From a virus: a DNA stretch of 64,000 nt. Both the position numbers and the translations under genes were made by a program. Positions within the stretch are counted from its first letter, which is position 1; each line of letters opens with the position of its first letter. This document shows, one piece after another, positions 139 to 28,827 of this stretch. Under the pieces are notes generated by a model, which saw nothing but the letters and a program-made list of their open reading frames with translations, made no database searches and had not been told where the DNA came from. The stretch spans positions 1 to 64,000 of IMG/VR virus record IMGVR_UViG_3300031823_000003. The stretch is one strand, 5' to 3'.

Positions 139-2767
139 ACGTCCGTCATTCCGCCGCTACGATCCATTTGCCAATCGGCCATTGCGACCAGTCCCTCCTG
201 TTGGTCCGGTTCCCGCCCGCGTCTATCTGATAGGTGAAAAACCGGGACGTGATGAAGCGCGGCGCGGCGTGCCCTTTGTCGGTAAGTCCGGGCAGATATT
301 GTCAGTATGCCTGTCTGCCGCCAACGTCGAACGCTCCGAATGCCGGATCAATAATCTGGTATCCACGTTTACTGAATATTCCAAACCGACCACCGAAGAG
401 ATCGCCCGCGACCATGATGCGCTGGCCGCTGACATTTTGATGTGTGATCCGGAAGTGATCGGGCTAGTCGGTGCATACGCCGTCGAGCATGTACTTGGCA
501 ACGGTCCCGCTGAGATGGAGCGTGTACACGGGATACCTCAGCATGTAGATGCGCTATTCGGCGGCGAACTGCCCCGCGACGGTGGATGGACGATCATTCC
601 TCTCCTGCATCCCGCCGGGGCTGTGCATGCTCCGGACTCCATGCCACTGATCCTTGATGATGTTCTGCAACTGGGCCGACTCCTCGATCACGAAATCGCG
701 GTGCGCGAACCTGATCCCTATGCCGGAAAAGAGGATTACCGCGACTACCCGTATACAGGCGGCACAGTCATCATCAACAAGCCTGCCGGATGCGACACCG
801 AAGGCAGCCGCGAGCACCCGTGGTGCATGACGGCGAGTACGCGACCGGGAACCGGGAGATTATTCAAGCCCGGATGGAGAGTCAGGTTCAAGGACAAAGT
901 TTACCTTTGGAACGCACTGCATGATTTAGGCGTATTGAGAGAGTTAGGAATTGAACTGGAAGACGGGCAGTATGTTGATCTGATGATCTATAGTTATTTG
1001 CTTTGTGTCGCCCCCCAAGGCTTGAAGCCATCGGCGTATAGAAATTGCGGCATGCACCAGGATGACTATGACGATATAGTCCGCGATGCCCGACTGGATA
1101 AAGCCATGAACTATCTGCTGGCGGCGGCGGACCAAGAGTGGCCGAAAGCCGAACCACAGGTAATCGCTGAACGTGGGACATATCGAGTGTATAAGCCTAG
1201 ATCGGTTAATTTCCGCATCAACAAGATACTCGATGACTGGACCAAGTGGCAGATAGGGGACCGCGAAGAGGAAGTGGATTTACGGAAGCGCTGGCGCGAG
1301 GTAGTAAGCAAGTCTCCGGAAGTAGCGGCACCCGTGATCACGGCAATGGGCGACATGCCGGACGCTACTCTGGATGACGTGCCGTATGCCAAGGCGCAGA
1401 GGTATGCGATCAGGGATAGCGATGCCACACTTCGCATGGCTCCAATATTAGAGCAAAAGATCAAGGATATGGGACTTGAGCAGATCGCCGAAATCGACCA
1501 TGCGATCCTGCCCATGCTGGATTCCATGCAGCAGAACGGGATCAGGCTGGCATACACGCCATTTTGGGACGATATCGAAGCTCAGTGCGAAGCGCAGATG
1601 TCTAGGGCCCAGTTTGAGATATTCAAACTAACTGGTGAAGATGTCAATCCGGCATCGGGGGACCAGGTTGCAGAATTACTTTACGGCAAACTGGGAATGA
1701 CGCCGCCAAAGTATACGGACAGTGGTGAACGCGGATCAGTGAATGCCGTATGCCTTGAATCCCTGTTAGGCCAGCATCCGGTCATCCAGCACATCATGGA
1801 TTTCACCGAAGCCAGCAAGATCAGAGGGACGTATGTGGAACCACTACGGTTACTCTGTACAGTTGGCGACCGTAGAGTGCGGTCCACGATACGATCGACT
1901 CGCACTACGACGGGCAGGCTGGCAATGGCTGATCCGCCGTTGCACCAGATTCCGATTATGACCGATCTGGGGAAGCAACTGCGTGACGGGTTTATTGCCG
2001 AGTCCGGGTGCGTGCTGTATGACATTGACGTTAACCAACTGGAAATGCGTATTATGGCGCACGACTCCCGCGATGAGGAACTGTGCTGGCTGTTCCATGA
2101 AAACCGCGACATTCACGCTGAAACTGCGTGCAGCATATTCTCGGTGCCGATGTCGGCGCTGAGCGTGGGAGCTAACGGTAAGATCAACGACTATCGGAGG
2201 ATTGTGGCCAAGCACGCGGCGTTCGGTATCATCAACGGTATCACCGAACACGGTCTGGTTAATTACATGATACTCAATCGATGTCGGCGACCGGATGGCG
2301 AACCTTGGACGGTGGATGATTGTGTAATCATGCGCGCGGAGTGGTTCAAGAAGTACAAGGGCGTAAAGAGGTTCCATGAGGAGTGTATGGAAGAGACGCG
2401 GCAGACAGGACTAGCGCGCGAGACTATTGGTGGCCGGATCATCTATCTGCCTCAGGTATGGAGTCCGGACAAGCGGGTCAGGGAAAGCGCGGAGAGAATG
2501 AGCTATGTCATGCATACACAGGGCGGCGGACAGTCGCTGATTAAGCGGTGCATGGCGGTGGTGTGGCGGGAAGTGTGCAAGGTGTATATAGAGGTAAAGT
2601 CGTTGTTGCAAATGCACGATGAATTGCTGTTTGAGTTGCCGGATGATGCAGGATTGAAGAAAGATGTTGATGAGACCTGTACCCGGATTATGTGTAATGC
2701 GGTCAAGTTGAGAGTTCCGGTGCTGGCCGATGGCGGGTTCGGGATGTCTTGGGGGACGGCGCACTGA
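2..2767 (+). CDS. UDG-like / 3'-5' exonuclease / family A DNA polymerase fusion (5' partial)
   Basis: This is the replicative DNA polymerase of the phage. The frame is open from base 2, so the gene begins left of the window. A TTG at 182 is the first start-like codon after the repeat, but nothing supports it. After the Ser-Thr-Gly-Thr tail comes a domain like family 4 uracil-DNA glycosylases, with GEKPG at 233, PFVGKSG just after, and LLHPAG around 602. Next is a DnaQ-like exonuclease with motif I DTE at 794-802, a motif II-like LWNALHD and a motif III-like YVDLMIY. The polymerase part shows TGRLA, motif A DVNQLEMR at 2027, motif B RRIVAKHAAFGIING and motif C HDE at 2615-2623. UDG-like domains fused to phage PolA are known. 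Whether this one removes uracil or only binds it cannot be told here. Confidence 0.93.
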   Translation, partial: STGTSTGTSTGTSTGTSTGTSTGTSTGTSTGTSTGTSTGTSTGTSTRPSFRRYDPFANRPLRPVPPVGPVPARVYLIGEKPGRDEARRGVPFVGKSGQILSVCLSAANVERSECRINNLVSTFTEYSKPTTEEIARDHDALAADILMCDPEVIGLVGAYAVEHVLGNGPAEMERVHGIPQHVDALFGGELPRDGGWTIIPLLHPAGAVHAPDSMPLILDDVLQLGRLLDHEIAVREPDPYAGKEDYRDYPYTGGTVIINKPAGCDTEGSREHPWCMTASTRPGTGRLFKPGWRVRFKDKVYLWNALHDLGVLRELGIELEDGQYVDLMIYSYLLCVAPQGLKPSAYRNCGMHQDDYDDIVRDARLDKAMNYLLAAADQEWPKAEPQVIAERGTYRVYKPRSVNFRINKILDDWTKWQIGDREEEVDLRKRWREVVSKSPEVAAPVITAMGDMPDATLDDVPYAKAQRYAIRDSDATLRMAPILEQKIKDMGLEQIAEIDHAILPMLDSMQQNGIRLAYTPFWDDIEAQCEAQMSRAQFEIFKLTGEDVNPASGDQVAELLYGKLGMTPPKYTDSGERGSVNAVCLESLLGQHPVIQHIMDFTEASKIRGTYVEPLRLLCTVGDRRVRSTIRSTRTTTGRLAMADPPLHQIPIMTDLGKQLRDGFIAESGCVLYDIDVNQLEMRIMAHDSRDEELCWLFHENRDIHAETACSIFSVPMSALSVGANGKINDYRRIVAKHAAFGIINGITEHGLVNYMILNRCRRPDGEPWTVDDCVIMRAEWFKKYKGVKRFHEECMEETRQTGLARETIGGRIIYLPQVWSPDKRVRESAERMSYVMHTQGGGQSLIKRCMAVVWREVCKVYIEVKSLLQMHDELLFELPDDAGLKKDVDETCTRIMCNAVKLRVPVLADGGFGMSWGTAH

Positions 2768-2780
2768 TCGACAATTATCT

Positions 2781-3260
2781 ATGTATACCGATGCCTTCCT
2801 CTCCGATGACCGTAAGTACAGATATTGGCTAATCCGCATCTGGGATTACTCGCTGCCCATCATGGGAAATATCGGAGTCAATCCCTCGGTCGCGGATGAG
2901 CGCGATAACGACCCGACGATTCGCAAAGATATCGGATTCGGCGAGCGCCTAGGATTTGGTGGAGTGCTCAAGCTCAATGTCGCCGCGCTAAGGTCTACTG
3001 ATCCGGTGGCGTGCAGGAACGCTTATGCGCCGATAGGGCTGTTTAACGACGCGAGCAATCTTGTAAGCTACTGTGAATTGTTCGAGGTGAGCAAAGTGGC
3101 CGCCGCCTGGGGACGCAATGGCCGCTGGTTTCCCTATGAGACTAAGCGTATAGTGGCGGCGTTACCCGAACTGTGGTGTTGGGGAATGAATAGCGATGGG
3201 ACGCCGCGACACACTTTGATGACGCCGTATGCGACGGAGCTAGTCAGGTACAGAGGGTAA
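2781..3260 (+). CDS. DUF1643 family protein
   Basis: The 159-residue product carries the pattern I associate with DUF1643: an aromatic start (YRYWLIRIW), then MGNIGVNPS, then a DPTIRK segment and a G-rich stretch with LKLNVAALRSTDP. The family is common in phages and mobile elements and has no firm function. I chose the ATG at 2781, 13 bases after the polymerase stop, over an upstream start that would overlap the polymerase. No clear ribosome binding site is visible, so it is probably co-transcribed with the polymerase. Confidence 0.8.
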   Translation: MYTDAFLSDDRKYRYWLIRIWDYSLPIMGNIGVNPSVADERDNDPTIRKDIGFGERLGFGGVLKLNVAALRSTDPVACRNAYAPIGLFNDASNLVSYCELFEVSKVAAAWGRNGRWFPYETKRIVAALPELWCWGMNSDGTPRHTLMTPYATELVRYRG

Positions 3261-3265
3261 GCATA

Positions 3266-3646
3266 ATGGACATCGTTACCGTCGCAATGGGCCGCAAGAA
3301 TTCCGCTGGAGATTGGATCGTCACCGAGCGTGTTGAATCGGTATGCATCCCGACCAGTGTTACTCAGATCGCAATCACTCCCTGTGTGCCGGATGTGCGC
3401 GTATCGTCCGCATCGGGGTACAATCTGACCCACGTACAGAGCGGGTACTTTTTGCTGGGGCCGTTTGCAACCATTGCCGAGGCTCAGAGCGCGGCGGATA
3501 TACTGGCGGATATATTACCGGTCGAGGACTGGAACATTATGGGGCAAATATCGCGGAGCTGGCAGCGGTCGCAGGTGAAAGCGATGTTCGGGAGGCTGAC
3601 ACCTGAGCAGCAGAAGTGGATGCGGGAACGGGGAGCAAAGTTGTAA
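3266..3646 (+). CDS. hypothetical protein
   Basis: A 126-residue protein I do not recognise. It starts 5 bases after the DUF1643 gene and has a good ribosome binding site (GAGGG about 8 nt before the ATG), so it belongs to the same operon. The middle (GYFLLGPFATIAEAQSAADIL) looks like a small alpha/beta domain. The C-terminus is basic and helical. Nothing in it points to catalysis. Confidence 0.7.
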   Translation: MDIVTVAMGRKNSAGDWIVTERVESVCIPTSVTQIAITPCVPDVRVSSASGYNLTHVQSGYFLLGPFATIAEAQSAADILADILPVEDWNIMGQISRSWQRSQVKAMFGRLTPEQQKWMRERGAKL

Positions 3647-3681
3647 TCGCGGGTGATGGGCAATTGGACGTTGGGCTGCCG

Positions 3682-4113
3682 ATGGCGAAATACAGGAACG
3701 GTCAGCACATCCATAAAAAAGGCTATCCGCGTATGTCGGCGGGTCCCCTCCGGCACCAACTCCTACACAGGCTAATTGCAGCAGCGATGATCGGCAGGGA
3801 TTTGAAGAAAGACGAATCCGTTCACCATAAAGACGGCAATCGGCTCAACTGTCACTGGTCTAATTTGATTATCATGGGATTCAAGGATCACGGCTGGGTC
3901 AGCAGTAAGCAAGAGTGGTATATGCGGGAAAAAGACAGGCGCGAGAAATTGCAGTGGGACGAGTACATGGCCGAAAAAGACGCCGAGTTCCGTGATGAAG
4001 TGAGCGCCGCCAAGGCTGAGGGAGTGCCGTGGCAGAATACGCATATCGACGGGGAGATGCAGCAGGAATGGGAGGCACGGATCAATGTCGATGCCAGTGG
4101 CAGTGGAGATTAA
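3682..4113 (+). CDS. HNH endonuclease
   Basis: A 143-residue HNH-type nuclease of the HNH_3 kind. The segment LLHRLIAAAMIGRDL is followed by ESVHHKDGNRLNCHWSNL, which gives the paired histidines, the aspartate-glycine-asparagine turn and the final asparagine of the fold. The C-terminus is charged and helical. Such proteins are usually homing endonucleases or DNA nickases acting in phage replication or packaging. The open frame reaches back to 3616, inside the previous gene. I prefer the ATG at 3682, though its ribosome binding site is weak. Confidence 0.82.
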   Translation: MAKYRNGQHIHKKGYPRMSAGPLRHQLLHRLIAAAMIGRDLKKDESVHHKDGNRLNCHWSNLIIMGFKDHGWVSSKQEWYMREKDRREKLQWDEYMAEKDAEFRDEVSAAKAEGVPWQNTHIDGEMQQEWEARINVDASGSGD

Positions 4114-4333
4114 GGACAGTCATGCGAAGTTGAACTGCGCGGCGGTGATGAGGACAGTACTGGTCGATTCACATAATCGCCTGCGGCAATCGAAAATAAA
4201 TTGCGGAAGCTCCAATGATACGCATGAATACTGGGTTGTAGGGCCGCTGGGCAGGGTGCGAGTGAGATTATGCAAGGTGCATCATACGCCGGATAGTGCG
4301 TCAAGCGCTCCAAGTGATGCTGTCACGCCCTGA
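4085..4333 (+). CDS. hypothetical protein
   Basis: An 82-residue protein of unknown role. Its ATG lies inside the end of the HNH gene and is preceded by a good ribosome binding site (GGGAGG, about 8-9 nt upstream), so it is translationally coupled. The sequence is basic with scattered cysteines (NCAAV, INCGSS, LCKVHH) that could bind zinc, but the spacing matches no family I know. Confidence 0.55.
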   Translation: MSMPVAVEIKDSHAKLNCAAVMRTVLVDSHNRLRQSKINCGSSNDTHEYWVVGPLGRVRVRLCKVHHTPDSASSAPSDAVTP

Positions 4334-4344
4334 TATTTTTTTCC

Positions 4345-4373
4345 TTGACATCGTATACGACTTGCACTACTCT
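4345..4373 (+). promoter_or_regulatory. sigma-70-like promoter with GTATAC operator
   Basis: TTGACA at 4345-4350 is followed after 17 bp by TACTCT. The spacer begins with the perfect 10-bp palindrome TCGTATACGA (4351-4360). A run of seven T lies just upstream, as in an UP element. The block CCTTGACATCGTATAC recurs exactly on the minus strand in front of the ribbon-helix-helix gene near 27.06 kb, so one repressor may bind both. It would drive the AbrB-like gene. Confidence 0.65.
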
Positions 4374-4422
4374 CCTGTCAGTACAGGGATTCACGAATAA
4401 TAGTGAATAGGCACACTTGGCA

Positions 4423-4692
4423 ATGTCATCCTCAGTCACAGATCCGAATGGGCGTACTCGATCGGCGGGCGTAACCGTGGATGCCGTAGATGATGTGTCG
4501 ATCACTGTCACCCGGTCTGTCAAAGTCTGGCGGTCCAGCTACAAGACCAACATGCTGCTGATGTCCATTCCCATTGATGTGGCTGAGCTGACCGGGATCA
4601 AGGACGGAGACATGCTGCTGATTAAGGCGAACGCCGAGGGGCAGATGATGATTGTGAAAGCGGATGCCATAGCGGCGGGGACAGGGGTATAG
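4423..4692 (+). CDS. AbrB/SpoVT-like DNA-binding protein
   Basis: An 89-residue protein. Its C-terminal half matches the swapped-hairpin AbrB/MazE domain: MSIPIDVAELTGIKDGDM follows the usual 'IPxxVxxxxGhxxGD' pattern and is followed by short beta strands (LLIKANAEG, MMIVKAD). The N-terminal 40 residues are polar and probably flexible. It is a transcription regulator in the early block, read from the promoter at 4345. No toxin gene lies next to it, so I read it as a regulator rather than an antitoxin. A TTG six bases upstream (4417) is the alternative start. Confidence 0.75.
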   Translation: MSSSVTDPNGRTRSAGVTVDAVDDVSITVTRSVKVWRSSYKTNMLLMSIPIDVAELTGIKDGDMLLIKANAEGQMMIVKADAIAAGTGV

Positions 4693-4696
4693 GGAC

Positions 4697-5308
4697 ATGA
4701 ATACCGGACAGTCCATAACGTTTCCAGAGTACTCCGGCATCCGGTGTCTCATGATGCCGTACATTCAAGGCGATCCCGATTCTGTTCTCAGAGATTATGC
4801 TCCGTACCGTGACATCCTGGCCGAACTGGTTATCGAACGTGGACGCATCGGATTCCTGACCATTGATGAGTCACCTGTCACCGCCGGGACCCCTCACCGG
4901 GGAGCACGGGCAAAATATGGGCGGGCATTACATACAGAAGTGGGCCGCGACCCGAACCGGATTTACTGCTGGGGCAGCGGAGGCTGGCACAAGCCACCTC
5001 ACCGCGTAACGCTAGACCGCGATACGCAGATACTCCTGGCTAATAATCTTGACGACAGCTGCGCGGTGTGGGACGCCGAGCATGAGAATACCTCACCGGA
5101 TGGCGATATCGGGTATATGGCTGATTTGTATCCGTATAGCAATGCCACGTTTATTAAAAGCGGCGAGGTGCACAAGATTGGTATCTTCACTCCTCATGAG
5201 AGCATGCCAGCTGAGCATGATTTCAACAGGCAGTTCCTGCGTATCGTGTCGTCCGGTGTTCATGGGCGCGAGGAATATTTTACCGAAAACGAACTTGTAC
5301 CATTGTAG
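4697..5308 (+). CDS. hypothetical protein
   Basis: A 203-residue protein I do not recognise. It starts 4 bases after the AbrB-like stop, so the two are co-transcribed. It is acidic, rich in aspartate and aromatic residues, and has no membrane segment or signal peptide. The repeated short strands (RIGFLTI, RIYCWG, HRVTL) suggest a beta-rich globular fold. The spacing of the AGGG element to the ATG is only 2 bases. Confidence 0.65.
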   Translation: MNTGQSITFPEYSGIRCLMMPYIQGDPDSVLRDYAPYRDILAELVIERGRIGFLTIDESPVTAGTPHRGARAKYGRALHTEVGRDPNRIYCWGSGGWHKPPHRVTLDRDTQILLANNLDDSCAVWDAEHENTSPDGDIGYMADLYPYSNATFIKSGEVHKIGIFTPHESMPAEHDFNRQFLRIVSSGVHGREEYFTENELVPL

Positions 5309-5312
5309 TGAT

Positions 5313-5531
5313 ATGACAGCCAAAGAAGCTAAGATCGGCATGCGTGTCCGGGTATCGGAAAATAAGCCAGACGGATCGCCTCATCCGCATGCCGGAAAGA
5401 CTGGGCGTATAGAGCACATTCATTACCTCGTTGGGCCGCAGCCCACAGCGCATGTATTGATCGACAAGGGATTTAGCGAGGCCGGACGGATAGCTGTGGT
5501 ATCGCCGGCAAGTTTGACAAAGGAAGGTTGA
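5313..5531 (+). CDS. small KOW-like beta-barrel protein
   Basis: A 72-residue protein starting at the ATG at 5313. It has the look of a small KOW/SH3-like barrel: GMRVRV, then HAGKTGRIEHI, then a strand TAHVLID and a last strand RIAVVS. Small proteins of this shape are common in phage early regions and often bind RNA or partner proteins. The barrel assignment is by eye only. Confidence 0.6.
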   Translation: MTAKEAKIGMRVRVSENKPDGSPHPHAGKTGRIEHIHYLVGPQPTAHVLIDKGFSEAGRIAVVSPASLTKEG

Positions 5532-5539
5532 ATAATTTT

Positions 5540-5974
5540 ATGAGCCTCAATCGTTCGCAACTCGCAACCCTCGCCAGTGAGATCGAGCAGTCGCTGCCGA
5601 CGCCGGAATGGGATACGGTCCCGGAACTCAAACGGTTCCGCCATGAGATTACAGGCAAGGATGGCAAGAAGGCGAAGCTGTCGTTCGATCAGATGGTCGT
5701 CAAGTATAAGGAATTGGACGCCGAAATAAAGTTCCGCGAGAAGATCAAGGCGGACCTGAAAGACGGCCTCGAAGCCGCCATGCTTATTGCCGATTGTGCC
5801 GAATGTGAGTGCGAAGGCTATCCTGTGCAGAGGATCACCAAGCAGGGGAGCCGGAAGATTAGCGCTGAGAGACTGCTGGGCGCGGGTGTTTCAGCGGATA
5901 CGATTGCACACTGCACCGAGGTCGGGCCGGAGGTCACTTACGTTCAGATCGGCAAGCCAAAGAAAGATCATTAA
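5540..5974 (+). CDS. hypothetical protein, helical
   Basis: A 144-residue protein starting MSLNRSQL. The middle (MVVKYKELDAEIKFREKIKADLKDGLEAAM) is strongly helical. It is followed by a cysteine-containing segment (IADCAECECEGYPVQRI) and a C-terminal part with KISAERLLGAGVS. This layout, a helix then a small domain with 'IsaerLLe.GVs', recurs in phage early proteins of unknown role. A ribosome binding site (AGGAAGG) ends 12 bases before the ATG. A TTG at 5528 overlaps the previous gene. Confidence 0.7.
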   Translation: MSLNRSQLATLASEIEQSLPTPEWDTVPELKRFRHEITGKDGKKAKLSFDQMVVKYKELDAEIKFREKIKADLKDGLEAAMLIADCAECECEGYPVQRITKQGSRKISAERLLGAGVSADTIAHCTEVGPEVTYVQIGKPKKDH

Positions 5975-6018
5975 TACAGGTTTCGGCAGTCTCAAAGCCC
6001 GCTTGGCCCGAGGCTGAT

Positions 6019-6126
6019 ATGGTCAACAGTACCCGAATACCGATTCCTACACTTACTCTCGAAGGAGAGCAGATAGAAGGGATAGGGAACGTTGCATGTG
6101 AGCGCTCACATGTCCAACGCAACTAG
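6019..6126 (+). CDS. possible 35-residue peptide
   Basis: A short frame starting at 6019 with a weak GAGG element 6 nt upstream. The product begins MVNSTRIPIPTLTLEGEQ. Its 3' part overlaps an 18-bp palindrome, so this stretch may be regulatory rather than coding. It is the only frame with a plausible start in the otherwise empty gap 5975-6315. Confidence 0.25.
   Translation: MVNSTRIPIPTLTLEGEQIEGIGNVACERSHVQRN
6095..6112. promoter_or_regulatory. 18-bp perfect palindrome, operator-like
   Basis: CATGTGAGCGCTCACATG is perfectly symmetric. Its core TGTGAGCGCTCACA equals the centre of the ideal symmetric lac operator, so a LacI/GalR-type or similar dimeric repressor could bind. The half-site CATGTGAGCG recurs exactly at 8467-8476, across the start codon of the small HTH gene. 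Confidence 0.5.
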
Positions 6127-6315
6127 GGGCATCGCAGGCATGCGGTGGATCGGGCAGAGAGAAAAAACCGATGGGACTGCCGAATATTAGTTCGCACCGG
6201 GCGGCCACTCATAACGCCAACAGGCATATGCTGTGAGCACGGATTACAGTTCACGGACTGACAGCCGCCCGGTATCACAGTTTTACTTAGGATCGTTGAA
6301 AGGTATCGCGTCTTG

Positions 6316-6549
6316 ATGACTATTTCATCTTCGTCTTCTGCTCGATCGCACCGTATGAAATCCAGTCCCCGCACCTCACGGCCTTTACGCTCCGATGATG
6401 CAGTATCTCAGTACAACACCGATGTCAGTGGCGGGCAGCCAGTGTACAGGTGCGTCGAGAACGGCTGCCGGGAGATACCGATACATACGCATCAGCGGAG
6501 ACCGTATCTGGTGTGGAGCAAGTCTCGGAGCACGGGTAAAGCTGAGTGA
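6316..6549 (+). CDS. possible hypothetical protein
   Basis: A 77-residue frame whose stop overlaps the start region of the next gene. The N-terminus is Ser/Arg-rich and low in information. The C-terminal half (PVYRCVENGCREIPIHTH) could hold a small metal site. No strong ribosome binding site is seen. Two other frames are open over the same bases, so support is weak. Confidence 0.35.
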   Translation: MTISSSSSARSHRMKSSPRTSRPLRSDDAVSQYNTDVSGGQPVYRCVENGCREIPIHTHQRRPYLVWSKSRSTGKAE

Positions 6550-6809
6550 TGATGGAGATCAAAGCATACAAATGCGATGCTTGCGGTAGGGAGCGGCAGC
6601 AAGCGAACCACTGGTTCGTAGCCCGGATCGGCGAGGCATTCCATATCTATCACTGGGAGTTTTTCTACGGCGAGTGTGATGGGGAGGGCAGCAAAGATAC
6701 CAGTATTGATATTAAGCATATCTGCGGACAGGAGTGTCTCGGGAAAATGTTGCAGCCTTTCCTCGACAAGCGTTCGCAGCCGCAAGAGAGTACAATTCAA
6801 GGCCAATAG
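6546..6809 (+). CDS. small zinc-binding protein
   Basis: An 87-residue protein. The first ATGs (6549, 6552) follow a GTG at 6546. It has a CDACGRE knuckle near the N-terminus and an HICGQEC motif 40-50 residues later, a likely treble-clef or zinc-ribbon pair. An aromatic-rich segment (FHIYHWEFFYGEC) lies between them. Zinc-finger proteins like this are common in phage early operons. The exact role is unknown. Confidence 0.65.
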   Translation: MMMEIKAYKCDACGRERQQANHWFVARIGEAFHIYHWEFFYGECDGEGSKDTSIDIKHICGQECLGKMLQPFLDKRSQPQESTIQGQ

Positions 6810-6836
6810 AGATATACATATACAGGAGAACATCCA

Positions 6837-7442
6837 ATGATGCTTACCCGCCGCAAGTTTGCAACCGCTTCTATTGCCACCGCTGTCGGCATGAGCGTGA
6901 GTATCCCCTTTGAATCCGCCTGCACTTTCTCTTCGGTGTTCGCCAATATCGAAAAGTACGTCCCGGTCGGGCTGCAAGCCGTATCAGCGGTATTGTCAAT
7001 ACTTACCGGAAACGGGATTGCCGTGGCGGGAGTGTCCGGGATCATCGCTCTTATCAAAGTGGCATTCGCCGATTTGTCGGCGGCGGTGTCGCAATATCAG
7101 AATGCCCCAGCGGGACAAAAAACAGGATTGCTCGGAGCGATATCCGAAACCATGACCGTGCTCGAAGCCAATATCCAGAAGCTATGGTCGGACCTGTCAA
7201 TCCCCGATGCCAGGCTCAGTTCGCTTATAGAAGGGTTATTGGGGGTGATTACGACTACTCTGTCGGGATTTATGACGCAACTGCCTGCCCCTGTGTCCCC
7301 GGCGGCGCAGACAGCCAAGACGATGAAGATGGGTTTGGCGAAACAGTTGCCGTCGAATCCCGTACAGCGGTCGCCGAAACAGTTCAAGCGTGATTTCAAT
7401 GCGGCGCTGGGAAATTCGTATGCCCAGCACGCGATCAACTAG
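6837..7442 (+). CDS. Tat-signal secreted protein of unknown function
   Basis: A 201-residue protein with a good ribosome binding site (AGGAGA about 9 nt upstream). The N-terminus MMLTRRKFATASIATAVGMS is a textbook twin-arginine signal: TRRKF followed by a weakly hydrophobic stretch. A cysteine near residue 29 (ESAC) could be a lipid anchor, though the preceding residues are not a canonical lipobox. Two hydrophobic helices follow (about residues 45-80), then an amphipathic region and a basic tail. Proteins of this style occur in bacterial genomes as secreted unknowns. It may act at the membrane or in the periplasm, but nothing shows a reaction. Confidence 0.7.
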   Translation: MMLTRRKFATASIATAVGMSVSIPFESACTFSSVFANIEKYVPVGLQAVSAVLSILTGNGIAVAGVSGIIALIKVAFADLSAAVSQYQNAPAGQKTGLLGAISETMTVLEANIQKLWSDLSIPDARLSSLIEGLLGVITTTLSGFMTQLPAPVSPAAQTAKTMKMGLAKQLPSNPVQRSPKQFKRDFNAALGNSYAQHAIN

Positions 7443-7456
7443 GCGGCTCGCGCTCA

Positions 7457-7897
7457 GTGAATGCGTCTAACCGTATCGCGGTCCACTGCCGGTATTGCAA
7501 TCTCAATCAGTACGAAACTGTGTCCCGCAAGTGCCGGAGGTGCGGGAAATGGCTGTACAAGCAGGACGAGGATAAAGACAAGAACAAGGGCGAAGAGACT
7601 TTGCCTGCATCGGACGTATTGGCTACATCAGTAGTATCTCCATGCATACACTACGATTCCTACTCGTTCTGGTTTCCACTCATTATCACCGCTCTGCGCG
7701 AGTTAAACGGTCTGTCACAACGCCAATATGCTCATCAGGTAGGCGTGAGCAGGCAGTACCTGAGCCGGATCGAGCGCGGGCACACCATACCCTATGTAAG
7801 ATTAATGCCGAAGTTTACAGATGGACTAGGTGTGTCGATGCACAGGATGCTGGAACTGTGCGAGGCGTGCATGGCGGCTACGGCTATGACAGGATAA
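7457..7897 (+). CDS. zinc-ribbon plus XRE-type HTH regulator
   Basis: A 146-residue protein starting with GTG. The first 35 residues hold a zinc ribbon (CRYCNLNQ ... CRRCGKWL). A charged linker follows. Residues 75-135 are a Cro/CI-type helix-turn-helix: LRELNGLSQRQYAHQVGVSRQYLSRIERGHTIPYV. It is probably a transcription regulator and is the last gene of the plus-strand early block before the convergent minus-strand gene. The fusion of a zinc ribbon to an XRE domain is uncommon but seen in phages. Confidence 0.8.
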   Translation: MNASNRIAVHCRYCNLNQYETVSRKCRRCGKWLYKQDEDKDKNKGEETLPASDVLATSVVSPCIHYDSYSFWFPLIITALRELNGLSQRQYAHQVGVSRQYLSRIERGHTIPYVRLMPKFTDGLGVSMHRMLELCEACMAATAMTG

Positions 7898-7901
7898 TAG
7901 G

Positions 7902-8252
7902 CTATGGAATGATCACCGGAAACCTCATCGGGTCGGTGATGGACTCGTAAGGCGACTGGTACCTCTGTATAAACGAACACAAGCTGCAAGCAATCACTGC
8001 TACGCTTATCTGTTGTACGTTGTCATAGTCTCGAAATATTGTTATGCAATTCTGCCAGTGACCGCAGCCGCAAACCCATAAACCTGAATTTTCGGCCCAA
8101 ATTTGACCGCTCGTAGGGTAAGCCAAAAACGGCTGGTTAACCTGCTGTTGCGGAAAAACCGTTGTGTTAGGGCCATTTGGCTGACTCCACCGCGTCCCAC
8201 CGAAGTTCTTGATATATAGCGTTCCTTGGGGCGGAAGATTTCCGGCAGGCAT
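7902..8252 (-). CDS. hypothetical protein with paired Cys motifs
   Basis: A 116-residue protein starting MPAGNLPPQG. I chose this ATG because AGAGGA lies 7 nt upstream. The open frame continues to 8303, but there it would enter the pentamer tract. The C-terminal half carries CGCGHWQNC and then ACSLCSFIQRYQSPY, a pattern I have seen in phage proteins of unknown role and a likely zinc site. It points left, like the late genes, but sits alone and converges on the XRE gene 4 bases away. Confidence 0.65.
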   Translation of the reverse strand: MPAGNLPPQGTLYIKNFGGTRWSQPNGPNTTVFPQQQVNQPFLAYPTSGQIWAENSGLWVCGCGHWQNCITIFRDYDNVQQISVAVIACSLCSFIQRYQSPYESITDPMRFPVIIP

Positions 8253-8279
8253 AGTCAATTCCTCTCGCGTGAATGTTAC

Positions 8280-8285
8280 TATACT
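8280..8285 (+). promoter_or_regulatory. -10 element upstream of pentamer tract A
   Basis: TATACT matches the -10 consensus at five of six positions. Transcription would start at about 8291, eight bases before the first G-Y-N-N-N unit. No good -35 hexamer is visible at 16-18 bp. It fits a small RNA running through tract A to the hairpin at 8386. Confidence 0.4.
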
Positions 8286-8298
8286 GTTGTCTGTCTGT

Positions 8299-8384
8299 GC
8301 CATGCTTAGCCGTGTTCAGCTATGTATCCGCTCAGCTCAGCCATGTCATGCCGCGTTGCGCCGAGTCTTGCTGTGGTTTGTATC
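8299..8384 (+). repeat. pentamer tract A, 17 G-Y-N-N-N units
   Basis: Starting at 8299, a G recurs every 5 nt for 17 units, with one 6-nt unit at 8324. The second base is a pyrimidine in 16 of 17 units and the last three bases vary freely. The tract lies in the divergent gap between the minus-strand gene at 7902 and the HTH gene at 8470. It shares units such as GCCGT, GCTGT and GCCGA with tracts B and C. Confidence 0.9.
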
Positions 8385-8385
8385 A

Positions 8386-8432
8386 GGCCGGGAGACTCCA
8401 ATCTTCGATGGTCTTCCGGCCCGCTATTTTTT
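8386..8432 (+). terminator. hairpin and U-tract after tract A
   Basis: GGCCGGGAGAC (8386-8396) pairs with GTCTTCCGGCC (8411-8421) over 11 bp with one G-U, closing a 14-nt loop. After five bases a run of six T follows (8427-8432). This looks like an intrinsic terminator on the plus strand directly after tract A. The T-run also sits just before the -35 of the next promoter. Confidence 0.65.
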
Positions 8433-8434
8433 CC

Positions 8435-8463
8435 TTGACTGATTAACTTAATTAAGTTAATTT
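8435..8463 (+). promoter_or_regulatory. promoter with 20-bp palindromic operator
   Basis: TTGACT (8435-8440) is followed by the perfect palindrome ATTAACTTAATTAAGTTAAT (8442-8461). A weak -10 (TAATTT, 8458-8463) lies 17 bp after the -35 box. The palindrome fills the spacer, so a dimeric repressor bound here would block the promoter. The obvious candidate is the HTH protein encoded just downstream. The start codon is 6 nt after the -10, which suggests a leaderless transcript. Confidence 0.6.
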
Positions 8464-8469
8464 GTTCAT

Positions 8470-8685
8470 GTGAGCGGGCACAAGCATTATACGGAACAGC
8501 ACCTTCGTAGTCTTCTTAAAAAACACCTTCACTTTGGCGATATGCATCAATCCGCGCTGGCTCGGCGCATCGGTGTGTCTCCGGCGTTTTTATCAAAGGC
8601 GCTGGGAGGAGAGCCGTTGACGGGGAAGATTGTGAAATGGCTGGGGTACAGGAGAGTGAAGATCAGAGTTTTTGAAAAGTTGTGA
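8470..8685 (+). CDS. small HTH DNA-binding protein
   Basis: A 71-residue basic protein starting with GTG. The segment HQSALARRIGVSPAFLSKALGG is a Cro/CI-like helix-turn-helix, with LTGKIVKWLGYRRVKIRVFEKL following. This is the usual shape of short phage Cro-like proteins. There is no ribosome binding site, in line with a leaderless mRNA. Upstream lies a 20-bp palindrome, its likely own operator. The stop codon runs straight into pentamer tract B, and tract A lies upstream, so the gene is framed by the repeats. Confidence 0.75.
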   Translation: MSGHKHYTEQHLRSLLKKHLHFGDMHQSALARRIGVSPAFLSKALGGEPLTGKIVKWLGYRRVKIRVFEKL

Positions 8686-8688
8686 TCC

Positions 8689-8823
8689 GTTCCGCCAAGC
8701 CGTGCTGTGGTGTATTCAGTTGCGCTCTGCCTGGTCGAGCCGCGCTAGGTTACGTTGTGCCGGGTCAGGTTAAGTCGTGTTTTGTATCGTTCGGTTTAGT
8801 CGAGCCGAGCTACGTCTCGCTGT
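8689..8823 (+). repeat. pentamer tract B, 27 G-Y-N-N-N units
   Basis: 135 bp made of 27 consecutive 5-nt units without a single indel. The first base is G in 26 of 27 units (A at 8714) and the second is a pyrimidine in 26 of 27 (G at 8709). The last three bases vary. It fills the gap between the HTH stop and the RAMP-like gene. A 16-nt block at 8704-8719 matches one at 9664-9679 in tract C at 14 positions. No long frame runs through it. Confidence 0.93.
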
Positions 8824-8839
8824 CGTGCCAAATTTAAAG

Positions 8840-8845
8840 TAGAAT
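8840..8845 (+). promoter_or_regulatory. -10 element of the RAMP-like gene
   Basis: TAGAAT matches the -10 consensus at five of six positions. The ATG of the next gene begins 6 nt later, so the start site would be at or next to the start codon. No ribosome binding site is present. The region 17 bp upstream is the end of tract B and has no clear -35 box. Confidence 0.5.
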
Positions 8846-8851
8846 CACGCA

Positions 8852-9505
8852 ATGCCAAAAAGTGTACTCGAAAGCGGTAACAAAGACCATCTGTCCAATA
8901 CGAGCAACGGAGCGTCCAGTCAGATAGAAATGACCGAGCCTTATGTCGCGCATATCGACCTACAGGGCGTATGCCCGATCATTTTTCACCGCTGGAACGT
9001 GGAATCAGTCGAGGCCAAGTCCGCGTCAGCCAAAGGATCAAAAGCGAAAAATACGGACGACGTGGAATCGTTTGTCAGCCGCGACGACAAGGGAATCATC
9101 TGTGTTCCGGGAGAATATCTGCGGCAGGCCGTGCTGCATGCCGCCAAGTTCCGCCAAGACCCGAGATCGCCGCGCAAATCATTTTCGGACTTGGCGAAAG
9201 CTGGAATATTTTCTATCGACGAACTGGTGCCAATCACGAGTGCATCCGGCAAGCTAGCAAAGGAATGGGACTATCTGGATCGCCGCCGCATGACGGTACA
9301 GAGAAATTCGATTACCCGGTCGCGTCCGGCATTTCACGCGGGATGGCGGGCACAGTTTCACTTGCAGGTGGTGCTACCGGAATACATCAGCCCTTCGTTT
9401 TTGAATGACCTTATTCAACTCAGTGGGAAAGTTATCGGTTTAGCCGATTCCCGTCCTTCGTATGGGCGATTTCTTGTGGTAGGGTTCAAGACATCGGAAG
9501 TTTAA
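8852..9505 (+). CDS. RAMP-like protein between pentamer tracts
   Basis: A 217-residue protein of unknown function. After a polar N-terminus of about 30 residues comes a strand-loop element (YVAHIDLQGVCPIIFHRW). Then follow a Lys/Ala/Ser-rich loop, a segment CVPGEYLRQAVLHAAKF, a basic strand (RRRMTVQRNSITRSRP) and a closing element GLADSRPSYGRFLVVGF near residues 195-212. I have seen this general pattern, ending 'G.gD.RP.yGrF', in uncharacterised phage proteins. Its strand-helix layout and glycine-rich end loop recall RAMP/Cas7-type RNA-binding folds. That resemblance is by eye and is inference. Tracts B and C flank it directly, so an RNA- or DNA-binding role with 5-nt periodicity is the obvious idea. 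Confidence 0.7.
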   Translation: MPKSVLESGNKDHLSNTSNGASSQIEMTEPYVAHIDLQGVCPIIFHRWNVESVEAKSASAKGSKAKNTDDVESFVSRDDKGIICVPGEYLRQAVLHAAKFRQDPRSPRKSFSDLAKAGIFSIDELVPITSASGKLAKEWDYLDRRRMTVQRNSITRSRPAFHAGWRAQFHLQVVLPEYISPSFLNDLIQLSGKVIGLADSRPSYGRFLVVGFKTSEV

Positions 9506-9518
9506 ACAGGTGAGGCGA

Positions 9519-9728
9519 GCCGGGATTTGCCTTGCCGTGTTGAGTTCCGCCCGGATTCGTTCTGCTTCGCTAAGCTATGTTTAGTTGAGCATAGCCGAGA
9601 TACGCCGGGTTATGCTTGGCTCCGTTTCGATTGGCCTAGATTTACTTAGCTGAGTCGAGTTGTGCTGTGCTGTATTGAGTCCCGCTTTGACGGGCCGTGC
9701 TTGGCTGCGCCGAACTGCGTTGCGCTAT
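9519..9728 (+). repeat. pentamer tract C, 42 G-Y-N-N-N units
   Basis: 210 bp made of 42 units of exactly 5 nt with no indel. The first base is G in 39 units and A in 3. The second is C in 24, T in 12, A in 6 and never G. The remaining three bases vary. It starts 13 bases after the RAMP-like stop and ends across the stop codon of the convergent minus-strand gene, so it fills the whole convergent gap between the two transcription directions. Stop codons occur in all plus frames. Confidence 0.95.
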
Positions 9729-10213
9729 TGACCTGCGGCTCCAGTGGTGCTAACTGCTGGGGCCGTTTGTTCAGCGGGACGGACCGCTGACCAGTCTCCA
9801 AAACAGTAATTGGTGATTGCGTCCGCCGCTATTTTACGGACAAAACTATCAAACGGCTCCCCGGCGGATTCAGCCCAAGTTTGCATCGGCTCGCAGGCTT
9901 CCAAGGGGATTTCTATTTCGACCAGCAGACCGCCGCCCGGACCCTTGCGCGGCCCGGTAGATATACCCTGCGATGCGGCCAATTTTCGGACTTTGGCGAG
10001 CTGGTCCGGGGATAGTCCGGAGATGAACGCGCTGAGATCGGCGGACACAGTAGGATCAGTCTTGGCGATTGAAGCGCCTGATGCCGCTGCCTGCTGACCT
10101 GTGCTCGGCGGATCGGCGAGTGGATTAGTATCTGGTCTGTCGCCCGGTACTATATTCGCAGGCGTACCTGTGCCCGTGCTCGCGCTTGTGTTCGTGCTCG
10201 TGTCCGTACTCAT
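9725..10213 (-). CDS. hypothetical protein with Ser/Thr-rich N-terminus
   Basis: A 162-residue protein starting MSTDTSTNTSASTGTGTP, chosen because AGAGGTG lies just upstream. The N-terminal 20 residues resemble the Ser-Thr-Gly-Thr repeat at the left window edge, and the underlying DNA (GAGCAC/GGGCAC units) is related. Residues 60-95 are helical (LSAFISGLSPDQLAKVRKLAASQGIS). The C-terminal part (LLVEIEIPLEACEPMQTWAESAGEPFDSFVRKIAADAI) looks like a ribbon-helix-helix variant, so a DNA-binding role is possible. It is the last late gene. Confidence 0.65.
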   Translation of the reverse strand: MSTDTSTNTSASTGTGTPANIVPGDRPDTNPLADPPSTGQQAAASGASIAKTDPTVSADLSAFISGLSPDQLAKVRKLAASQGISTGPRKGPGGGLLVEIEIPLEACEPMQTWAESAGEPFDSFVRKIAADAITNYCFGDWSAVRPAEQTAPAVSTTGAAGQ

Positions 10214-10251
10214 AGTCTCACCTCTTCGTAGCTGCGCTCTGAATTGGCGTT

Positions 10252-10740
10252 TCAAATCAGTCCTACTTCCTGCCACACGGCTTGTATGCCGCCGTCCATA
10301 AACAATTGCCGCAGATTGTCGTCTGGCTCGCCTTCCGGCCAAGGCCCGGTGAGCTGAAAATGCGGCGCGTCCGGAAAGGTCCGCCACAATACACCTGAAT
10401 CCAGTCCCAGACTGATACCCTTGGCCTCCATACTTTTCCATACCGGGTGGGATGAATTCCAGTCAGGGAAGTATGGCTTATCGGGTGCGAACTGGGATGG
10501 CACACAATCAACGGCCAAGCCGTAATTGTGATAACTGTATCCGCCTTGAACGTTGGTGACAATGTTACCCGGAGCGGTTCTGCCTTGAGTGTACAGCGTG
10601 TCCTGCTCTGCCCATGTCCGCATACCCTGTACGACGCGGATATACACGTTATCCTGCTCCAGCATGGCGGCGAGAGTGTGAGTTTTAGCGGCTAGTGCCG
10701 GACATACCTGTCGCAATCGGGCTTCGGAGACGGCATCCAT
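10252..10740 (-). CDS. endolysin, M15 family L,D-/D,D-peptidase
   Basis: A 162-residue peptidoglycan peptidase that cuts stem peptides at the end of infection. The zinc site of M15 (VanY/CwlK) enzymes is complete: SYHNYGLAVD gives the SxHxxGxAxD motif and DAPHFQ gives the last histidine. The N-terminal part (VRVVQGMRTWAEQDTLY) matches the family too. There is no signal peptide or cell-wall binding domain, so a holin is needed for release. It is the distal gene of the lysis cluster 10.2-13.2 kb. Confidence 0.9.
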   Translation of the reverse strand: MDAVSEARLRQVCPALAAKTHTLAAMLEQDNVYIRVVQGMRTWAEQDTLYTQGRTAPGNIVTNVQGGYSYHNYGLAVDCVPSQFAPDKPYFPDWNSSHPVWKSMEAKGISLGLDSGVLWRTFPDAPHFQLTGPWPEGEPDDNLRQLFMDGGIQAVWQEVGLI

Positions 10741-10776
10741 AGTTGATAGTCTGTATTCGCGGTTCGCGGCTCGCGT

Positions 10777-11223
10777 CTATGATACACCCGAAGCGCCAGC
10801 AGCCGATGATTCAGCCGATGATTCAGATTCGGTCTTTATCGGCCTCGATTTAGCTGGCCTGTTCTTTGCGCATGTCCTGCATGCTATCCCCTGGCGGCCC
10901 GGTCTGTGGTACGTGTTCTCCGGTGTGTACTCGTGGCCGTGCGGGCAGTGAGTCGGCGGCGCAGGCGGCACATGCTTTCCGATATGGCTGTGTGGCGCTG
11001 CGGACCGCGCTGGCTTTATATCGCCACTATCCACTTGTAGAAACCACAGAGCGGCGGACTGCAATGCATCGGCGAATTCCGTGGGAGTGTGATTATGGCT
11101 GAGCACCGTGATCGTGCTGAGGATGCAGTGCCCGGACGAGGCTTGCTGAGGCGACGGCGTGTAGTGGAAACATTCCAGTATCCCGCTGATAGTAGTAAAG
11201 TAACGCACGTCAGCGATGCTCAT
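10777..11223 (-). CDS. zinc-binding HNH-like protein
   Basis: A 148-residue protein; I take the ATG at 11223. The second half has CPHGHEYTPENTYHRPGRQG followed by IACRTCAKNRP, a small treble-clef pattern frequent in phage genomes and often labelled HNH-like. The first half has no match I know. The catalytic HNH residues are not clear, so binding of nucleic acid without cutting is also possible. It overlaps the upstream coiled-coil gene by 14 bases. Confidence 0.6.
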   Translation of the reverse strand: MSIADVRYFTTISGILECFHYTPSPQQASSGHCILSTITVLSHNHTPTEFADALQSAALWFLQVDSGDIKPARSAAPHSHIGKHVPPAPPTHCPHGHEYTPENTYHRPGRQGIACRTCAKNRPAKSRPIKTESESSAESSAAGASGVS

Positions 11224-11551
11224 TTCTCTGACGGCTGTCAATGATCTCTACCCGGTCCCGTACCTCCTTGATGCTGTCCTGAATCTGGTCCAGCCGCTTG
11301 TTTAGTTCCGTGTCCCGAAGTAAATGCTCGCTGCGCGGCACCAGTTGCGTCTCCAGAGCTTCCACGCGCCGCGTAATCTCTGTGTGCTCGCTCCGCCGCA
11401 CCACGTCCTTGGTTTGGTCTTCGAGATAATTGACACGCGACTGGAGTACAGCGAAACTGGCAATCTGTCCGCCGAGCAGAATTACGACTGTGATGACGGT
11501 AGCCAGATGCCGGTCAACAAAACCGGTGCCGTTTCTACTTCTCATCTTCAC
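11210..11551 (-). CDS. membrane-anchored coiled-coil protein, spanin- or lysis-associated
   Basis: A 113-residue protein with one transmembrane helix (LATVITVVILLGGQIASFAVL, residues ~17-37) followed by a long charged coiled coil to the end. This is the build of an inner-membrane spanin subunit (Rz-like) or of similar phage lysis accessory proteins. It sits in the lysis cluster. A partner outer-membrane lipoprotein is not obvious next to it. Confidence 0.6.
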   Translation of the reverse strand: MKMRSRNGTGFVDRHLATVITVVILLGGQIASFAVLQSRVNYLEDQTKDVVRRSEHTEITRRVEALETQLVPRSEHLLRDTELNKRLDQIQDSIKEVRDRVEIIDSRQRNEHR

Positions 11552-28414: not shown

Positions 28415-28825
28415 CTATTTCCTCGATTTCGGGCGCGGACGCGGCACCTGACAGATTGGTTCCGGTGCACAGTCCCGCACTCGCTTGTCATGCCCAGCCT
28501 GAATAAAATCATCTTCATCGTCACTCAGCCGCATGACCATCTCCGGCCCGATCTCATGGGACTCGAAGTACTCGTTAAAGTGGACGTTGCAGGCATCCAT
28601 AACCACGCCTTCTGGTGTAAATATCCGGTAGACTACTTTCCACTTGCAGTACTTTTTGACAATGAAGTCCTGCGCGGCGGAATGAGTGCGGGTAGAGATT
28701 TTGTAGCATTGCAATGCGGGAATGGAGATGGGCACAGGTGCAGTCACGGGTTCAGCGCGGGGCAGAGATTTACCGTTCGATCGTTCGGCTACCGTAGCTG
28801 TGGCTGCACTCGCTCCCGCGCTCAT
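28415..28825 (-). CDS. hypothetical protein
   Basis: A 136-residue protein, basic at the C-terminus. The centre (IVKKYCKWKVVYRIFTPEGVV) is a likely beta sheet and is followed by an acidic part (MVMRLSDDEDDFIQ). It lies 2 bases after the nozzle gene, inside the tail cluster. The function is unknown. Confidence 0.55.
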   Translation of the reverse strand: MSAGASAATATVAERSNGKSLPRAEPVTAPVPISIPALQCYKISTRTHSAAQDFIVKKYCKWKVVYRIFTPEGVVMDACNVHFNEYFESHEIGPEMVMRLSDDEDDFIQAGHDKRVRDCAPEPICQVPRPRPKSRK

Positions 28826-28827
28826 AG

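Follow-up and report, generated by a model that had tools for sequence, protein, structure and literature searches.

A phage Cas7-like RAMP gene and its flanking GYY/NN pentamer tracts very probably form a VIPR system with a variant scaffold

A Cas7-like RAMP gene and the tracts of degenerate pentamers that flank it on both sides, on the same strand, very probably constitute a VIPR system of a tailed phage, in a variant form whose scaffold is GYY/NN. The gene, which we call vipr, lies in the first 64,000 nucleotides (hereafter the window) of the IMG/VR virus record IMGVR_UViG_3300031823_000003, which comprises 86,324 bases. Judged by a DNA polymerase gene at 182-2767 and by portal and terminase genes near the window end, the locus is carried by a tailed phage. 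VIPR (Viral Interference Programmable Repeat) is the subject of a 2026 preprint (PMC13142463), the sole relevant paper that we found on VIPR, its SUSP1 protein, and phage pentanucleotide-repeat RAMPs. According to the main text of that source, viruses of bacteria use VIPR against rival viruses; the system consists of a phage RAMP (Vipr) and vrRNAs of alternating GGY/NN, and its DNA code reads two bases and skips one. As described there, Vipr is a RAMP homologue of ~20 kD with an RRM-like core and a glycine-rich loop, the SUSP1 Vipr copurifies with pentamer (YNNGG) vrRNAs, a vrRNA consists of 9-16 repeats and, behind them, a structured 3' tail that does not vary, and an accessory vap gene is typical of VIPR, if not universal. 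The experiments that the main text reports concern two related phage/prophage systems with GGY guides. The preprint distinguishes seven types of VIPR, and the system of Escherichia phage SUSP1 is of type II. Because the scaffold at the window locus is GYY/NN, and not the GGY/NN of that main text, we regard the locus as a new VIPR variant. The features of the locus are collected in Table 1.

Table 1. Features of the candidate VIPR locus (positions in the window)
Feature	Position	Strand	Description
Tract A	8304..8384	+	Candidate vrRNA; 5 + 11 GYY/NN repeats, the two groups offset by a one-base slip; first five placed by eye
Hairpin and U-run right after tract A	8386..8432	+	Candidate vrRNA tail/terminator; -22.2 kcal/mol, z -3.2
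71-aa weakly HTH-like protein between tracts A and B	8470..8685	+	phrog_1468 and phrog_296 at about 1e-4
Tract B	8674..8823	+	About 30 continuous GYY/NN repeats, ending 28 bases ahead of the vipr start codon; first one or two doubtful
vipr gene	8852..9505	+	ORF, 217-aa Cas7-like RAMP (predicted fold); PHROG 4652 in common with SUSP1 Vipr; PDB 36pp
vipr stretch KAKNTDDVESF	9041..9073	+	Fits L029 vrRNA (tract at 3591) at 21/22 read bases
Tract C	9509..9728	+	Unbroken run of about 44 GYY/NN repeats in the gap from vipr to the convergent gene 9725-10441
Strong hairpin right after tract C	9735..9766	+	Candidate tail, also within the 3' end of the convergent gene; z -3.07 for 9716-9800

The preliminary description of this DNA had proposed a Cas7-type RAMP and had named fold comparison and a profile search as checks. 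We found the ORF exactly where it had been placed and of the same length, and it is a real gene, with relatives encoded in 242 viral and 19 cellular stretches; the best 80 of the 242 viral relatives share 48-60% identity with it in the best segment. An AlphaFold2 model of the protein (pLDDT 89.4, pTM 0.81) was Cas7/Csm3-like by Foldseek (E 6e-7). CRISPR effector chains made up the whole of both match lists, 50 chains from Foldseek and 50 entries from VIA, where Z reached 12.1 over 165 residues; identities in the structural alignments were mostly 9-15%. The structure prediction and fold comparison thus bear out the Cas7-type reading, and the predicted fold does possess the RRM-like core on which that reading depended. 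The G-loop of the protein is GLADSRPSYGRF. The Gly/Arg-rich turn DSRPSYGRF that had been pointed out earlier spans residues 199-207. It ranks with the best-conserved segments of the family: D199, R201, P202, G205, and R206 do not vary in 60 aligned sequences. The basic/polar stretch is likewise present, at residues ~53-80. The supposed strand-loop element at the start of the protein is not found in the model, where residues 1-21 form a low-confidence coil that is followed by a short helix and by a first strand at 31-39.

Sequence comparison ties the protein to the published system. Pfam holds no family for it, and it matches PHROG 4652, of unknown function, at 5.9e-12; the SUSP1 protein matches the same PHROG at 1.4e-96. 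Queried alone against PDB sequences, the window protein matches only 36pp, "SUSP1 Vipr protein" (E 0.0031), and the profile search gave the same entry as the only PDB sequence match of a 60-sequence clade profile without SUSP1 (E 6.3e-11). An earlier profile that contained SUSP1 had found 36pp at 9.1e-46, which is circular; because the SUSP1-free profile of 60 proteins still finds it, the homology to Vipr is independent of the SUSP1 sequence. The entry was absent among the fold matches of the model, for which the fold library ends in April 2026. By these profile matches, the 217-aa protein is homologous to SUSP1 Vipr. It probably binds the tracts as RNA and oligomerizes on them. The fold and the Vipr homology support the initial idea of a RAMP of the Cas7 type whose footprint is 5 nt; the logic of that footprint is unlike five paired bases, VIPR reading two of every five RNA bases with a target spacing of three.

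The tracts share a consensus that, counted from the conserved G, reads G-Y-Y-N-N. Across 85 repeats, G occupies position 1 in 81 and a pyrimidine occupies position 3 in 81; at position 2, 73 have C or T, 8 have A, and 4 have G. Positions 4 and 5 vary freely in these repeats, with every one of the 16 NN dinucleotides represented. At position 2, the pyrimidine is positively preferred and does not reflect drift (P about 3e-13 for an assumed background of 48%). Tracts C and B have G-phase scores of 36.5 (at 9509) and 27.5 (at 8674), whereas the best score in 100 Markov simulations of 64 kb had a mean of 9.4 and a maximum of 14; tracts B and C are not due to chance. The third tract (at 8330) scores 11, below the simulated maximum, and was accepted on account of its consensus, hairpin tail, and position, not of its score alone. 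Another weak G-phased run, at 3148, scores 10.5 and falls in the chance range. The guide NN look codon-like: G makes up 43.5% of their first and 14.1% of their second bases, and 34.9% and 20.4% of codon positions 1 and 2 in eight window ORFs.

Tract A, counted as 11 or 16 repeats plus its hairpin, agrees in these features with a published vrRNA. In tracts B and C, the repeats exceed the published number per vrRNA, and no unit boundaries are visible. The pentamer GTATC, which breaks the rule of a pyrimidine at position 3, occurs at the slip in tract A (8324-8328), as its last repeat (8380-8384), and as repeat 23 of tract B; such pentamers could mark unit boundaries. The hairpin behind tract A was not among the results of a consensus terminator scan, and no clear promoter was found at the locus. 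Searches with Rfam gave no hammerhead ribozyme at positions 2500-11000 of the window, where there was one subthreshold snoRNA match (E 0.63), and none in 16 relatives.

To place the locus among its relatives, we assembled 102 loci, namely, the best 80 of the 242 viral relatives and the 19 in cellular genomes, all found with a three-sequence profile, together with L001, L002, and the window. Of the 102 loci, 95 have at least 8 G-phased pentamers no more than 1 kb from the gene. Runs scoring at least 10 occur in 124 of 193 flanking kilobases versus 7 of 155 kilobases that lie 1.8-2.8 kb off; since they cluster beside the gene and are rare ~2 kb off, the vipr gene and the pentamer tract travel together. 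In the pooled relatives (5,815 repeats), position 2 is G in 75% and a pyrimidine in 18%. Its G is largely lost only in the window (5% G) and in one other locus, L087 (17% G in 18 repeats); intermediate values for position 2 are approximate because the register rule may misplace mixed tracts. A tree of 89 unique clade proteins and 4 outgroups puts the window and L087 on different branches, the window as sister of L025 (support 0.946) and L087 with L091 (0.892). The 19 relatives from cellular bins (L092-L110), labeled mostly as Phycisphaerae and also as Stenomitos, Thermomonas, and a Burkholderiales bin, are probably prophages or cobinned phages. More distant Vipr relatives on Azospirillum and Bradyrhizobium plasmids (L007-L010) have GGY/NN tracts directly 3' of the gene; both Bradyrhizobium loci go on with a metallophosphoesterase and an AAA ATPase, and one Azospirillum locus goes on with a methyltransferase and a DEAD/DEAH protein.

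The SUSP1 locus itself, where we placed Vipr at 28474-29061 of NC_028808 by position and tracts, has the published layout, in which one tract precedes the two genes and three follow them. It resembles the window locus in its small phage RAMP, its coding-strand pentamer tracts on both sides, a hairpin after a tract, and PHROG 4652. The two proteins, however, share 21% identity, and that of the window has an N-terminal extension of ~25 residues and a conserved QDPRSPRKS stretch. SUSP1 also differs in its GGY/NN scaffold, in its separate vrRNAs of ~100 nt where the window has long continuous tracts (30 and 44 repeats), and in its vap1, of which the window has no homologue. Closer proteins are those of phage DSL-LC04 (OR003939, annotated as an HTH regulator; 50% identity) and of the IMG/VR phage L025 (53% identity). 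Pentamer tracts adjoin both genes, with G at position 2 in 60% (DSL-LC04) and 73% (L025) of the repeats, in contrast to 5% in the window. Cas7/Csm3 of type III and type VII CRISPR-Cas share the predicted fold and the Gly-rich loop with the window protein, and a filament on guide RNA is likely for it too; they pair with a contiguous spacer, unlike the pentamer scaffold with a noncontiguous code in the window.

None of the neighboring genes recurs beside the relatives, and no recognized vap gene was found at the locus. The 71-aa protein between tracts A and B is a possible accessory gene; it has no Pfam match, is not shared with the relatives, and resembles SUSP1 vap1 over at most 8 residues. 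No Cas protein was found among 10 neighbors and 15 large ORFs compared with PHROGs, which may model Cas poorly. Endolysin-like and HNH-endonuclease-like genes (10252-11241, minus strand) lie close downstream of tract C. Tandem Repeats Finder (TRF) gave three arrays in the window, none near the vipr gene; a perfect array of the 12-mer GAGCACAGGCAC in 11.6 copies occupies positions 1-139, at the record start.

We assessed the 1-nt-skip code across the clade with 268 guides (6,443 NN) from clade loci, compared in 9-NN windows and with skips of 0 to 3 against 830 kb of DNA in which tracts had been masked. Matches at 8 of 9 plus 9 of 9 dinucleotides numbered 9+0 for skip 0, 330+12 for skip 1 (from 36 guides in 167 distinct alignments, many of them among near-identical loci and so nonindependent), 21+0 for skip 2, and 77+40 for skip 3, where the inspected part of the excess traces to homologous tracts missed by masking. 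With the order of NN shuffled within guides, seven trials gave 17-56 + 0. This first, vipr-centered set is biased to vipr-flanking DNA, and a second set gave a smaller lead for skip 1: 49+2 versus 20+0, 25+2, and 20+0 for the other skips. The second set comprised 60 whole stretches (1.11 Mb) from 31 of 40 viral records and 230 unique guides of the 268; its top match, of the L087 guide in sibling G003, is present because an earlier scan had found G003, and some of its matches are of low complexity (PVAPV repeats in G004). The published 1-nt-skip code is independently confirmed computationally across the clade.

In the best target stretches, the reading frame is such that the skipped base falls on the wobble position. 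Their translations include VIPTGGGKTPVI, whose motif resembles that of a helicase, as well as KKTDDVESF and RTRPALKAGW from vipr. Clade guides fit rivals better than self. The L029 guide matches the vipr genes of L106 and of the window at 21 of 22 read bases versus 17 of 22 in its own vipr, the L100 guide matches a rival gene at 23 of 24 versus 19 of 24 in its own, and the L032 guide matches a rival vipr at 23 of 26 versus 20 of 26 in its own. Several vipr genes fit the L029 guide because the KAKNTDDVESF motif is conserved, and by this fit the vipr gene of the window may in turn be targeted by VIPR.

Scans with five 8-NN patterns from the window's own guides against 2.9 million viral contigs yielded no target. 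The patterns matched 19 contigs (tract A), 43 (tract C, repeats 29-36), 6 (C 14-21), 0 (B 20-27), and 3 (C 4-11), with extensions near chance in all five scans. Many of the matches of C repeats 29-36 are DxVVVDPFG motifs, which we take to be methyltransferase-like; the best of the 43 (L154) was rejected, since only 8 of its 16 flanking bases agree, a result near chance. We also discarded 165 skip-1 windows as target evidence, which would be circular because their loci had been fetched by the same pattern. The phage's own genome (86 kb) shows no excess of partial matches to the window guides as a trace of sibling targets, and no NN strings common to the window and other guides were found beyond 13 of 16 bases.

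L087, the other locus with a GYY scaffold, offers a candidate target. It has one vrRNA of 11 GYY repeats directly 3' of vipr, with a stable hairpin and a U-run behind the repeats. The 8-NN pattern of this guide matched eight viral contigs. In one of them (L183), 5 of the 6 read bases beside the pattern agree as well, for a total of 21 of 22; such an extension has a chance probability of about 0.0046 per match and about 0.04 over eight. The match lies antisense to a 95-aa ORF, in whose codons the skipped bases coincide with wobble positions (register set by hand). A 782-aa protein beside this target is 83% identical to one in the phage of L087, and this kinship makes the match convincing. The 782-aa protein has no match in 50,697 phage records, and a portal-like role for it was dropped as a guess that no Pfam family supports. 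The L183 record contains no vipr match, and the L087 orthologue of the target gene fits the guide at 18 of 22 only. Two genes, one of them the gene that the guide fits, overlap in L183 (12998-13001) and are separated in L087 by a vipr-vrRNA cassette of ~0.85 kb (2811-3653) with one vipr, one guide, and no accessory gene. This arrangement suggests that the L087 cassette is an exclusion element that attacks a cassette-free sibling at its own insertion site. The reading rests on this one case, since partial matches in own flanks are not enriched across the clade: at a threshold of at least 17 of 22, own genomes contain 24 skip-1 matches versus 22-26 in three shuffles and 14-21 for other skips. 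The same absence of an excess speaks against a general homing-like rule.

Several other explanations deserve consideration. The tracts could be chance or low-complexity, codon-biased DNA, in keeping with the weak run at 3148 in the chance range. The scores of tracts B and C and the linkage of tracts to the gene refute this idea, and genes of other phages can also be predicted from the NN content of clade guides with a single spacing rule; we give the idea practically no credence. It is slightly less remote, and still very improbable, that an ordinary phage hypothetical protein uses a RAMP fold for another role, such as RNA processing, beside unrelated tracts. The protein does lack a Pfam family, and its binding is a prediction from sequence; against this stand the tracts beside the gene in nearly all loci and their rarity 2 kb off, and the homology to a protein whose binding of such RNAs has been published.

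A somewhat better, though improbable, alternative is a decayed or rewired VIPR derivative whose guides are targetless and whose tracts are used as DNA, in an operator- or iteron-like manner, for autoregulation or replication. The lack of targets for the window's guides, the loss of the second scaffold G, and the way tracts B and C abut the gene would all suit it. Position 2, however, is selected for a pyrimidine and not relaxed, a binding-site repeat would not need all 16 NN dinucleotides, the protein has kept the invariant G-loop residues, and L087, with the same scaffold, has a target in a sibling phage. Under the reading that we prefer, an intact VIPR system with a GYY/NN scaffold, tracts A to C would be transcribed as guide RNAs (vrRNAs). 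The RAMP would coat each guide, every pentamer taking up one subunit, which would grip the constant G-Y-Y and leave the variable NN exposed. The NN pairs would read double-stranded DNA as NN-x-NN-x..., with one base skipped, usually at the codon wobble position. The guide-protein complex would then silence genes of competing phages. For the window locus, we infer transcription, RNA binding, oligomerization, silencing, and a targeted phage.

Considered jointly, the window and L087 allow a broader interpretation, which we advance tentatively and regard as doubtful: scaffold base 2 may have switched twice from G to a selected pyrimidine with the 1-nt-skip code unchanged, scaffold-orthogonal VIPRs may be natural, and some VIPR cassettes may be portable exclusion elements. 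On this same tentative interpretation, two switches with the code kept would mean that Vipr subunits have a swappable base pocket. The window and L087 indicate that the VIPR scaffold base can change, and the RAMP residues that read the scaffold should therefore be identifiable by comparison. Candidates, as deviations from the consensus of the clade, are N67, F74, F111, and S200 in the window protein and, in L087, a W where R158 would stand. A changed scaffold also suggests orthogonal, compact RNA-guided DNA binders. Finally, the self/non-self pattern, in which rival vipr and helicase genes are fitted and own orthologues are mismatched, makes an arms race among VIPR phages testable.
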